A stretch of DNA of 23,316 bases from a virus. Each line of letters begins with the position of its first letter. The stretch's first letter is position 1. Of the stretch, positions 19,713 through 23,042 are shown in pieces. Position numbers and translations under genes: made by a program. The stretch spans positions 1 to 23,316 of the IMG/VR virus record IMGVR_UViG_3300044911_000036; one strand, 5' to 3'. The notes beneath the pieces were generated by a model. It was not told the origin of the DNA, made no database searches, and saw only the letters and a list, made by a program, of their open reading frames with translations.

Positions 19713-20939
19713 TCACCGTGCCATCGGCATGCTGACGGGGACAAGGCGGGCCTTCGGCTTGTCCTGCTTGGCCACGCGACGGGCGCCCTCGCAGGCATAG
19801 CGCAGCGCGTCGATGACGTGGTTTTCCTTGTCCTCCAGCACAGGCAAGATGCTGCCCGTGTCCCGGTCGGTCTTGTAGCTGTAGAGCGTCAGTTCATCAA
19901 TGGTGTGCTTGCAGCGGGGATGCACCACGATGTCAAAAGACTTCAGCCATTCGACGCCCTCCTCGACCGACTTCGGCCCCTTGACCGCCGGCATGATCTT
20001 CGGAAAGCCGTTCTTGCGCATGTGGCTGATTGTCTCGGGCCGCGCGCTGTCGGCCACCATCGGCCAGCGTTCAGCCTCGGGGATCGTCATAAACAGCGAA
20101 GGCGTGTCAACGATCTCGCAGCCCACCTGATAGGCTTCGTGATCGATATACAGCTTGCGCCCGATGATGTGGCAGCGAATGCCGACGGTCGGGTCAGTGG
20201 CAAAGCCCCAGTCAGCGCCGAGGCGATGGACGGCATCAGGCGGTGCCTCAAAGTCCTCAATGGTCCAGTTCTTGAACACGCGGGTTTCGCTGTTGCGGAC
20301 ATACTCGCCCTTCCAGACGTGCAGGTATTTGTCTGGATCTCTCCGCTTGTCGTATTCCATTTCGTCCTTGAGAACGTCAGGGAACCACGGGTTGTCGCTA
20401 TAGTTCACCTCGACGATCACGCTGTCAGGCGGCGGCGTTGGCCCACGCAGCAGGCCCTCAATGGGGTCCGTGTCGAAACGTGGGTTCCAACTGAACAGCA
20501 GTTGCGATCCTGGCTTGCGGATGGTCGGGCGCAGGAGATCCAGCGAGAACTGGCTGATCGACTGGGCTTCTTCCACCCAAGCGATGTCAAAGCCCTCCAG
20601 CGACTTCACGCTGTCGGCTGTGTGGTTCTGCATGCCTTGGAAGATGATCACGCCGCCGTGCGGGCATTTGATCTCTGCCTGCTGCACCTGAAACAGATGA
20701 CCGACGCCCAATTCCTCGATCTTGTTTTCGATCAGCTTCTTGACCGACTGCTTCAGCGACTTCTGCACCTCGCGCACGCAGACCACGTCGGTCTTGCGCA
20801 TCACGCAACGCTCCACGATCCATTCCGCAAAGAAGGTTGACTTGCCAGAGCCGCGCCCGCCGAACGCCCCGATGTAGCGGGCGCTCTCGCGTTGCAGGAT
20901 TGGCAGCGCCCAGCGAGGCGTGTTGATGGTGAGGTTCAT
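19713..20939 (-). CDS. Terminase large subunit (PBSX/Terminase_3 type)
   Basis: The 408-aa ATPase-nuclease shows the P-loop GGRGSGKST (about residues 27-35), a Walker B with catalytic Glu in IAWVEEAQS (about 119-127), and a coupling motif FSWNPR (about 150-155). The C-terminal RNase H-like nuclease acidic residues lie in GADWGF (about 244), MVADSARPE (about 298) and HVIDALRYAC (about 378). It docks on the portal, pumps DNA into the procapsid and cuts the concatemer. Unlike P22, whose small terminase gene lies directly upstream, the small terminase here is separated by the 477-aa gene. GGA lies just before the ATG; no strong ribosome site is seen. Confidence 0.95.
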   Translation of the reverse strand: MNLTINTPRWALPILQRESARYIGAFGGRGSGKSTFFAEWIVERCVMRKTDVVCVREVQKSLKQSVKKLIENKIEELGVGHLFQVQQAEIKCPHGGVIIFQGMQNHTADSVKSLEGFDIAWVEEAQSISQFSLDLLRPTIRKPGSQLLFSWNPRFDTDPIEGLLRGPTPPPDSVIVEVNYSDNPWFPDVLKDEMEYDKRRDPDKYLHVWKGEYVRNSETRVFKNWTIEDFEAPPDAVHRLGADWGFATDPTVGIRCHIIGRKLYIDHEAYQVGCEIVDTPSLFMTIPEAERWPMVADSARPETISHMRKNGFPKIMPAVKGPKSVEEGVEWLKSFDIVVHPRCKHTIDELTLYSYKTDRDTGSILPVLEDKENHVIDALRYACEGARRVAKQDKPKARLVPVSMPMAR

Positions 20940-20952
20940 TGGGGTCCGACTA

Positions 20953-22386
20953 CTAACGAGCGCCTGATGTCGGCGCGACAGGGAAATATCCGAACTCGTT
21001 CACGTCGTTGCCATCAAAGTAAATGTCTTTGACCTTCACTTTCTGGGAAATAATCTTCCCAGGCTCATCCCCGCTTCTGCCATATCCAGAAGCCCCATGA
21101 AGTTTGGCATATGTCGGGCTAAGGGTGATAAAATCCCCCTCGTTGATCGTCGTGATGTTGGGATCATTAGGCACGGCGCGATAGATTGTGACCTCTGCAT
21201 CAGGCTTGCCTCTTACAGCCATGATTGCCCTGTAGCTCTCTTTGTTTGCCTGACCAAACTCATCGCCAGAAAACTGAGGACCAGGAGCATAGAAGCGCGG
21301 ACCATTTGCGGAGTAGAAATCTGCGGGATACCCGGCCTGCTCACCAGTGGTGGACCTGGTTAGGTCATCGAGGCGAATTGGCAATTCGTCTTGAGGACCA
21401 CGGGGCTGTTGCTGCATTCGATACGACGTATCGACTGGAGCAGAAATGTTAAAATTCTCCGGGGCGTTCATCGCTCTTTCCACGTCTTCAAATGTCAGGT
21501 TTGGCGCAATCCTCTCCTGCATTCTTGGAGAAACCATGTTGACGGATGACATCTCATCGATGTCTGCAAATACTTCTTCAAGGGTAGCGCCTGGCTTGCC
21601 CGGCGGCCTGCGCCCAAGGCGATATGCTGTCGTTGCCGCTGCTTTGGATGACACCTGACCGCCCATCACCGGGAAGTCCTGCATAACGCGCTCTTGCAGC
21701 GTCTGGCCTATGCCTTGGCCGCGAGATGCTTCTGGCACCTCCAACTCAAGGACCGATGCGCTGCCATCTGGTCGCACGACAACCTCAATGGTGCCGCCGC
21801 TTCGCGGATCGGTGTAACGTACACGCTCGGAACCGGCTCCGAAGATGTTCGATGCGTCACGGCGTGATACATCAAGACCTCCACCCCTGCCAACGCCTGG
21901 GATCGGGTTGCTGTACATTACCGGCACGGGACCGGGCTGGTTGAGGCGGTCAACGATATCGCGACCAGCCGCACGCATAGTGTCTCCAGCAGCCTGCGTC
22001 GTGGGTGAGAACCCCAGCAGCCCCTCCATCATTGCGCTGGCAGCAGGCACACCGATGGCCCTTGCGGCTGCGATAGGTGCGGCGATGCCGGCCACGCCTG
22101 ACGCCATCTCTCCCAAGGATGCGATGCGGTCCCAATAGCTCTGATCGGGCGCCATCATGCGAGATCCTGCCCGCATTGCGCCGCCGATGCCCTCGACCGG
22201 GTTGAAGGTCTGGTTCAGAAAGGCAAGCCTCTCACCGATGCCGCCGACGTTCAGCAGGCTAGGATCTTGCGGCGGCACGCCACGGGCCTCGGTATCGGGC
22301 CGCACGCGGCGCACGGGATACAGCATGCCGTCTGCGCGCCGCTCATATAGCACGTTTCCGATTTCGCGCAGGTCTTCGATAGCCAT
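20953..22386 (-). CDS. Multidomain protein with GNAT-like and ADP-ribosyltransferase-like regions, between the terminase genes
   Basis: The 477-aa protein has four parts: a polar N-terminus; an Ala-rich hydrophobic region at about residues 90-125 (GVAGIAAPIAAARAIGVPAA), like ejection proteins; a GNAT-like section with LELEVPEASRGQGIGQTLQE (about 213-232, acetyl-CoA loop RGQGIG); and, after a linker, a C-terminal domain. That domain contains VTIYRAVP (Arg403), GDFITLSPTYAKLHG (about 418-431) and YFDGNDVNEFGYFP (Glu464). This order resembles the R-S/T-E arrangement of ADP-ribosyltransferase folds in phage polyvalent proteins. Such enzymes modify host proteins with NAD. It could be packed in the head and injected, but that is inference. 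The coding region for the C-terminal domain is lower in GC (25/60 at 21001-21060 against 35/60 at 22201-22260). AAGGG precedes the ATG by eight bases. Confidence 0.7.
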   Translation of the reverse strand: MAIEDLREIGNVLYERRADGMLYPVRRVRPDTEARGVPPQDPSLLNVGGIGERLAFLNQTFNPVEGIGGAMRAGSRMMAPDQSYWDRIASLGEMASGVAGIAAPIAAARAIGVPAASAMMEGLLGFSPTTQAAGDTMRAAGRDIVDRLNQPGPVPVMYSNPIPGVGRGGGLDVSRRDASNIFGAGSERVRYTDPRSGGTIEVVVRPDGSASVLELEVPEASRGQGIGQTLQERVMQDFPVMGGQVSSKAAATTAYRLGRRPPGKPGATLEEVFADIDEMSSVNMVSPRMQERIAPNLTFEDVERAMNAPENFNISAPVDTSYRMQQQPRGPQDELPIRLDDLTRSTTGEQAGYPADFYSANGPRFYAPGPQFSGDEFGQANKESYRAIMAVRGKPDAEVTIYRAVPNDPNITTINEGDFITLSPTYAKLHGASGYGRSGDEPGKIISQKVKVKDIYFDGNDVNEFGYFPVAPTSGAR

Positions 22387-22389
22387 GCC

Positions 22390-22773
22390 TTAGCCCTTCG
22401 GATCGATGATGGTTCGCTTGATTTCGACGGGAATAGCGCCGCCGTCTGGGCCGGATAGCTCTTGCTTGGTCGCGTCAGAGTAGCCGTGCTTGGACAGCAT
22501 CATCTTGGTGATCGGCGGATTGAACGTGCCGTCGAGGCCATTATTGAGCAATTCGCGCTCTTGCTTTTGCGCGATTGCCTTGAGGATGTCAGAAAAAACC
22601 TTGTCCTTGTCCCGCGCCCAATCGTAGCAAGTCTCACGGTGCATGCCGATTTCGCAAGCCAGACCGGCAACTGACGGCACCTTGTCGCCCGCCTTGATCC
22701 AGCCGCCGTTGGCGTATTCCCACGCCTTCTCAACGATCTCTGGCGAATAGTCTGTCAGCCTTCCAGACGGCAT
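22390..22773 (-). CDS. Terminase small subunit, P22 gp3-like
   Basis: The 127-aa protein has an N-terminal helical DNA-binding region (SPEIVEKAWEYANGGWIKAG, then VPSVAGLACEIGMHRETCYDW), which looks like a helix-turn-helix at about residues 30-52. It continues with a helical body (LKAIAQKQERELLNNGLDG) and a C-terminus with ITKMMLSKHGYSD and VEIKRTIIDPKG, typical of small terminases of this type. Such proteins form rings that recognise the packaging site and stimulate the large subunit. I chose ATG 22773 (GAGGTGAGCAATATG) over a longer in-frame start at 23046, whose extra 91 codons are an out-of-frame reading of the upstream gene. The stop is three bases before the next start. Confidence 0.88.
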   Translation of the reverse strand: MPSGRLTDYSPEIVEKAWEYANGGWIKAGDKVPSVAGLACEIGMHRETCYDWARDKDKVFSDILKAIAQKQERELLNNGLDGTFNPPITKMMLSKHGYSDATKQELSGPDGGAIPVEIKRTIIDPKG

Positions 22774-22820
22774 ATTGCTCACCTCATCTCGGGCGATGCT
22801 GCCCGGTCGCTGGGCGCATT

Positions 22821-23042
22821 CTAACGCTTCACCGCCAAATATGCAAACTGTCCGACGCCCTCGCGCTTGCAGAACAGGAAGACCAGCTTGTCGGTCTCGG
22901 CTCTGGCAGCCGCGTGGCGATGCAGGCCGCCGCAGGTCTGGCCGATCCAGTAGACGATGCGGTCGCCCTTCTGCGCCTCGGCCAGCGCGCGGTAGAAGGC
23001 ATCCGGCTTCGTCTCGCCGGTGATGTAGATGGTGCTGCTCAT
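22821..23042 (-). CDS. Hypothetical 73-aa protein
   Basis: The product starts MSSTIYITGETKPDAFYRAL and has a plausible small alpha/beta composition (KGDRIVYWIGQTCGGLHRHA, TDKLVFLFCKREGVGQFAYL). Its ATG overlaps the stop of the upstream partial gene (ATGA), and the gap to the small terminase is 47 bases. I do not recognise the family. The coding reality of this frame, rather than the competing frame that runs into the small terminase, is supported by the normal residue balance and the ATGA junction. Its place directly upstream of the packaging genes may indicate an early-to-late boundary protein. Confidence 0.7.
   Translation of the reverse strand: MSSTIYITGETKPDAFYRALAEAQKGDRIVYWIGQTCGGLHRHAAARAETDKLVFLFCKREGVGQFAYLAVKR

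Follow-up and report, generated by a model that had tools for sequence, protein, structure and literature searches.

In polyvalent proteins of phages, GNAT domains have already been described beside ADP-ribosyltransferase (ART) domains (PMC5512222), and MuF polymorphic toxins, some of them ARTs, join a constant virion part to variable C-terminal toxins and are encoded with terminase and portal genes (PMC5576092). T4 Alt, an ART with R-S-E residues, is injected with the DNA (PMC5512222, PMC9503650), and packaging has been proposed for ARTs encoded close to terminase genes (PMC9503650). Here we analyze IMG/VR virus record IMGVR_UViG_3300044911_000036 across a stretch of 23,316 nucleotides (the window). 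It comes from an uncultured P22-like phage and carries, between the genes for its small (TerS) and large (TerL) terminases, an effector gene (20953..22386, minus strand, ATG start) whose 477-amino-acid (aa) product consists of an N-terminal module, a GNAT cassette and an ART-like C-terminal domain. The most striking feature of the locus, absent from an initial annotation of this DNA, is that the TerS–TerL slot is a cassette-exchange site. On balance we think it probable, if not strongly so, that the gene encodes a small, virion-delivered polyvalent effector in which a constant N-terminus carries an exchangeable GNAT/ART payload.

The window protein resembles polyvalent proteins in joining several effector domains, here GNAT and ART-like, in one late-gene polypeptide encoded with packaging genes, and homologues of its C-terminal domain occur in proteins of 1,000–2,500 aa and also alongside LPD23 and ART-PolyVal. 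The initial annotation had regarded a GNAT and an ART in one phage protein as unusual, a claim overtaken by the polyvalent precedent (PMC5512222). However, the window protein, at 477 aa, is much smaller, and it has an R-[S/T]-E pattern where the described polyvalent ARTs are of the H-Y-D type (PMC5512222). With MuF toxins it shares a constant N-terminal module, a variable C-terminus and the terminase/portal setting, and homologues of its C-terminal domain are fused to MuF, but it lacks the MuF domain (PF04233) and has a different N-terminal module. From T4 Alt it differs in having no sequence match to it, no Q/E-x-E motif, a P22-like podovirus rather than a myovirus as its source, and a GNAT joined to it. 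Gordonia phage Skog gp173 ("acetyltransferase"/"ParB C-terminal domain") likewise has a GNAT-like part ahead of this C-terminal domain, but is 23% identical, is encoded near a tail sheath gene and matches the Pfam GNAT at no better than E = 0.095.

ART-PolyVal (PF18760) holds the equivalent payload position in two sister slot proteins (L027, E = 6.7e-7; L036, E = 1.7e-6, both narrowly missing the cut-off; homologous loci are given L numbers throughout) and elsewhere adjoins the window-type domain, yet no relation emerged from profile comparison. Identity of the window domain with ART-PolyVal was rejected, as the window protein has no such Pfam match and hhalign with the ART-PolyVal-like cassettes found in sister slot proteins gave a probability of 0.2%. 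In the literature we found no description of a fixed TerS–TerL slot that reassorts GNAT and ART cassettes, no paper combining the PHROG 2579 label discussed below with phage, and none that places an ART at the small terminase slot, which is weak evidence given that the literature was covered in part.

Payload cassettes are exchanged at the TerS–TerL slot, and the breakpoints fall on domain boundaries. Slot proteins of IMG/VR relatives have a common N-terminal module and wholly different downstream parts. Across the window and nine relatives chosen for display rather than sampled at random (L005, L008, L012, L015, L019, L021, L024, L027 and L041), the TerL flank is 94–97% identical in DNA, often on through the portal, and the same ten phages hold ten different payload arrangements. 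Homology breaks off repeatedly at aa 135 or near aa 165, and at both edges of the GNAT (aa 171 and 295). Of the 19 relatives compared, 12 regain DNA homology at the last codon of the gene, to the nearest base, marking a recurrent right-hand recombination edge (20956..20957; positions 2360-2361 of the reverse complement). The two enzyme positions vary in different combinations: L005 and L008 have GNATs that are 96.6% identical and ART-like ends that differ, L008 and L015 have a common end and different GNATs, and L019 combines an L015-type GNAT with an L005-type end. Two large conserved slot payloads, one in L012 (4998-6893), L038 and L040 and the other in L022–L024 and L030, had no match in Pfam, NCBIfam or PADLOC (L014 being of the L012 type and L024 of the other); these cassettes may be new effectors.

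Two further features of the slot were seen among its relatives. Most slot proteins (L005, L008, L009, L015, L019, L021 and L027) have a common C-terminal tail ending PPSQWDQLVVGPQ, which is missing from the window protein. L035 (181-3523) seems to have exchanged both terminase genes for an unrelated pair, and its TerL now lies upstream of the effector, which has kept its association with a 92%-identical portal. The L035 TerL ends RLVPVMMPMAR and the window TerL RLVPVSMPMAR, and these like tails suggest a recombination edge at the TerL C-terminus.

In the mechanism that we infer, for packaging and ejection as for catalysis, substrates and targets, the effector would be made late, alongside the head and packaging proteins, would be brought into the head at assembly by its N-terminal module, and would enter the host by ejection along with the DNA. 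The C-terminal two-thirds forms the exchangeable payload, in which a minimal GNAT would transfer an acetyl or acyl group from acyl-CoA and a compact R-[S/T]-E ART would ADP-ribosylate a host macromolecule with NAD+ as donor; their pairing suggests two modifications on one pathway. The likely benefit would be host reprogramming or the disarming of defences in the first minutes of infection, with payload swaps under host-driven selection.

Virion delivery is likely from the context of the gene and its homologues. Homologues of the C-terminal domain lie C-terminal to MuF in L099, L115, L117 and L125, and one is fused to a portal in L107, with MuF further on; in L109 the portal falls just under the Pfam cut-off. 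Another accompanies a transglycosylase and LPD23 (L069), and ART-PolyVal adjoins the domain in L057, L058, L060–L062, L068 and L070, passing the Pfam cut-off in L062. The domain also pairs with differing GNATs, as GNAT1-ART in the window and L094, GNAT1-ART-GNAT2 in L150, and ART followed by another GNAT in L056. A TerL, portal, scaffold or coat gene lies nearby and co-directional in at least 39 of 141 homologous loci, a lower bound obtained within the available stretch with profiles seeded from the window phage and one other TerL. Together, these fusions and neighbors strongly favor an effector linked to the virion over a casual metabolic gene.

We propose that the N-terminal module (aa 1-165; 21892..22386, minus strand), which is common to slot proteins with very different C-terminal cassettes, is the packaging or delivery part. 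Within it lies an Ala/Gly-rich hydrophobic stretch (aa 88-125; 22012..22125, minus strand), evident from sequence and hydropathy. The initial annotation had likened an Ala-rich hydrophobic region to those of ejection proteins; the region is indeed present, but its Kyte-Doolittle maximum is only 1.56 (over 19 residues), which is borderline, so a membrane helix is not clear. Elsewhere, in L010 (3858-6440), the module stands behind a virion-like lysozyme region (Phage_lysozyme2, tested in L010), and we read L031 (3732-8375) and L142 as alike. In L031 a single 1548-aa open reading frame (ORF) contains two copies of the module, each with a different payload.

The same context bears on an alternative that we consider unlikely, in which the enzyme is made in the infected cell, is never packaged, and acts late on proteins of the host or the phage; it might, for instance, prevent superinfection or adjust the terminase or portal. 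Such an enzyme would fit the position of the gene, 13 bases from TerL and apparently in one operon with it, and the window protein itself carries no direct sign of packaging; standalone copies of the domain, among the replication genes of T4-like Vibrio phages and as a small solo gene in mycobacteriophages, imply that it can act apart from virion parts. The fusions of homologues to MuF and portal argue against an unpackaged enzyme, however, as do the pairing of a constant N-terminal module with a variable payload and the position of that module behind a virion-type lysozyme domain in L010.

Under the preferred reading of a virion-delivered effector, the first enzyme of the payload is the GNAT cassette (aa 171-295; 21502..21876, minus strand). 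A GNAT fold with a beta4-RxxGxG/A-alpha3 acyl-CoA loop is well supported here by the alignment and by modeling, in agreement with the initial annotation, which had placed a GNAT in the middle of the protein. In 23 homologous cassettes, 125 residues can be aligned without large gaps, and the RGxGxG loop is invariant (R222, G223, G225 and G227 of the RGQGIG motif, aa 222-227; 21706..21723, minus strand), with a strongly conserved tail, VSSKAAxxTAYRLGRRP...SSVN. The AlphaFold2 (AF2) model has a pLDDT of 79.9, and all 50 entries listed for it by VIA-align are, by our own reading, GNAT folds (Z up to 7.5, over aa 165-245, model residues 1-81). The window protein itself matches the Pfam family Acetyltransf_CG weakly and below the cut-off (aa 204-238, E = 0.0086, 16.6 against 30 bits), while the L150 cassette, 75% identical to the window GNAT, exceeds that cut-off (35.4 bits). 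The cassette had no match among 50,697 phage records and is therefore known here from metagenomes only.

The C-terminal domain (aa 316-477; 20956..21441, minus strand) belongs to the PHROG 2579 family (E = 1.4e-25), and its AF2 model, a compact domain with a pLDDT of 87.6 and a pTM of 0.82, indicates that it likely has an ART fold. In a VIA-align comparison with 842 chains, 31 chains, listed as 24 PDB entries, reached Z ≥2, and by our own classification all 24 entries have ART folds: KptA, the ART-like part of CNFy, Arr, TreX, TreTu, Vis, PARP10/14/16, ExoT and ART2.2. The Foldseek candidate list also held many other folds, including haemagglutinins and ribosomal proteins, and in BFVD a MuF C-terminal protein was matched weakly (E = 5e-3).

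Candidate catalytic residues can be placed within this model. R403, the candidate NAD-site arginine (21178..21180), lies on the first core strand; T421-L422-S423 (21118..21126), of which T421 is on the next strand, would supply the Ser/Thr of the triad; and E464 (20995..20997), the candidate catalytic glutamate, precedes the last strand and is followed by FGY (all minus strand). This order of Arg on strand 1, Ser/Thr on strand 2 and Glu on a late strand is that of R-S-E ARTs, with the strand placement taken from the model. Conservation was counted in a 66-copy alignment and, at positions with a letter, in a wider set of about 105 homologues. In the wider set, R403 is conserved in 105/105, Ser or Thr occupies position 421 in 104/105 and 423 in 98/105, and position 464 is Glu in 99 of 104 and Gln in the other five. 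The 66 aligned copies retain Y-R(403), N-x-G-D-W-[VI]-[TS]-L-S, Y-A-x-x-H and E(464)-F-G-Y. The proposed catalytic residues are thus supported by the model together with family-wide R-[ST]-E conservation. The residue numbers and strings given initially (RGQGIG; YRAVP, aa 402-406; GDFITLSPTYAKLHG, aa 417-431; NEFGYFP, aa 463-469; R403, T421/S423, E464) are all correct. The ART fold that had been claimed for the C-terminus gains from the confident model, from ART folds being the only ones at Z ≥2 and from the conserved R-[ST]-E, but its matches reach no more than Z 4.9 and no profile links it to an ART family.

Several observations weigh against the preferred reading. The ART fold matches are weak (best Z 4.9, a middling value that can arise by chance; best Foldseek E = 0.16), and no hidden Markov model or profile search matched the C-terminal domain to any ART family. 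The window copy deviates at two near-invariant sites, with Q326 in place of a His found in 63 of the 66 aligned copies and F419 in place of a Trp found in 65 of them. The GNAT is short, without the normal N-terminal helical part, and its model is weak beyond aa 245, and the N-terminal module contains no known packaging signal. Arginine-modifying ARTs such as T4 Alt have a Q/E-x-E signature before the catalytic Glu. This motif is not present here (position 462 is Val in the window and Ile, Leu, Val or Phe across the family), so the ART target could be protein, nucleic acid or NAD+ itself, and action on the same kind of target as Alt, the phage enzyme cited in the initial annotation, does not follow.

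Some of these points would also suit a C-terminal domain that is ART-shaped and performs no NAD chemistry, serving instead as a binding module, a nuclease or a DNA-binding domain, a reading that we consider less probable again than an unpackaged enzyme. It is in keeping with the low Z scores, the missing Q/E-x-E, Q326 and F419 in the window copy, the weak BFVD match to a MuF C-terminal protein and the name "ParB C-terminal domain" that PHROGs gives to PHROG 2579. Set against these are R, S/T and E at the R-S-E triad places, near-fixed in about 105 homologues, the restriction of Z ≥2 to ART-fold entries, members in tandem with ART-PolyVal, and the full-length members Myrna gp78 and Pupper gp109, in neither of which a ParB family was found. 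ParB as the function of the domain was not supported: the match to the PHROG is strong, but Pfam detected no ParB domain in Myrna gp78, Skog gp173 or Pupper gp109, and none is listed among the fold matches. The isolated C-terminus had no match in Pfam or NCBIfam, and neither phmmer nor a profile of 66 homologues matched PDB sequences.

The domain is widespread in phages. PHROG 2579-type domains occur in 171 records of a phage collection, including Mycobacterium, Gordonia and Vibrio phages, and homologues of the C-terminal domain were found in 284 IMG/VR stretches and in 27 stretches from assemblies of bacteria or archaea, while a plasmid search yielded two matches only, both from Arthrobacter. 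They span a range from solo proteins of 129 aa to internal domains of proteins of 2,000–3,000 aa, and KptA and Arr genes were located in genomes that carry them. Solo ART-like copies are found on chromosomes of Arthrobacter, Sinomonas and Brachybacterium (L178, L181, L184, L189 and L190); in the Sinomonas copies Gln replaces the catalytic-Glu position (DQYGY), and the Arthrobacter chromosomal copy runs on into an apparent helix-turn-helix region.

Going further than a virion-delivered effector, and with less than even confidence, we suggest that the slot may represent a MuF-free combinatorial virion-effector system, in which a fixed delivery module is combined with two interchangeable enzyme positions (GNAT type by ART type). 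One of these positions would hold a compact R-S-E ART family that is new, masked by the "ParB" name and common to MuF, portal and polyvalent proteins, with acetylation and ADP-ribosylation acting together on one host target. If the effector interpretation is right, a widespread mislabeled phage domain gains a testable enzymatic function, enzymes that are injected to modify the host can be exchanged naturally at a packaging locus, and comparison of swapped payloads in near-identical phages would directly reveal the host factors at which each enzyme is aimed.

The effector ORF is confirmed as a real gene, beyond chance. It is intact in three further contigs (100, 100 and 99.8% identity), each of the N-terminal, GNAT and C-terminal modules has many IMG/VR homologues, and the median dN/dS, from unsaturated pairs only, is about 0.12 for the GNAT and 0.14 for the C-terminal domain. 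GC content at third codon positions (GC3) is 0.53 in the ART part and 0.58 in the GNAT part, compared with 0.81 in TerL and 0.70–0.81 in the neighbors, in line with recent import of both parts. We give very little credence to a neutral recombination scar with dead modules: low GC3, mosaic structure and the window-specific changes at two family-conserved sites would suit it, but the module-family dN/dS of 0.12–0.14, the intact ORF in three other contigs and the retention of R403, S423, E464 and the entire GNAT loop speak against it. The window protein had no match in NCBIfam or PADLOC.

The ORF and the Pfam matches of both flanking genes agree with the initial placement of the effector between the two terminases. 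It starts 3 bases past the gene for the gp3-like small terminase (22390..22845, minus strand; PF16677 GP3_package, E = 1.2e-21), and 13 bases separate its stop codon from TerL (19713..20939, minus strand; PF04466, E = 3.7e-35). Beyond TerL lie genes for a P22-type portal (PF16510), a scaffold and a P22 coat (PF11651), and the window also encodes head closure and DNA-transfer proteins, these structural genes all being on the minus strand. The closest portal relative with a named host is that of Pseudomonas phage PfAn1 (52% identical). In PfAn1 and ct3Oc712, two related P22-like phages, the terminases are annotated without an intervening gene, and the effector gene is therefore accessory. The small terminase beside the slot also varies, with 30–48% aa identity across the window, L009, L012, L019 and L030, where TerL and portal are 85–99% identical.
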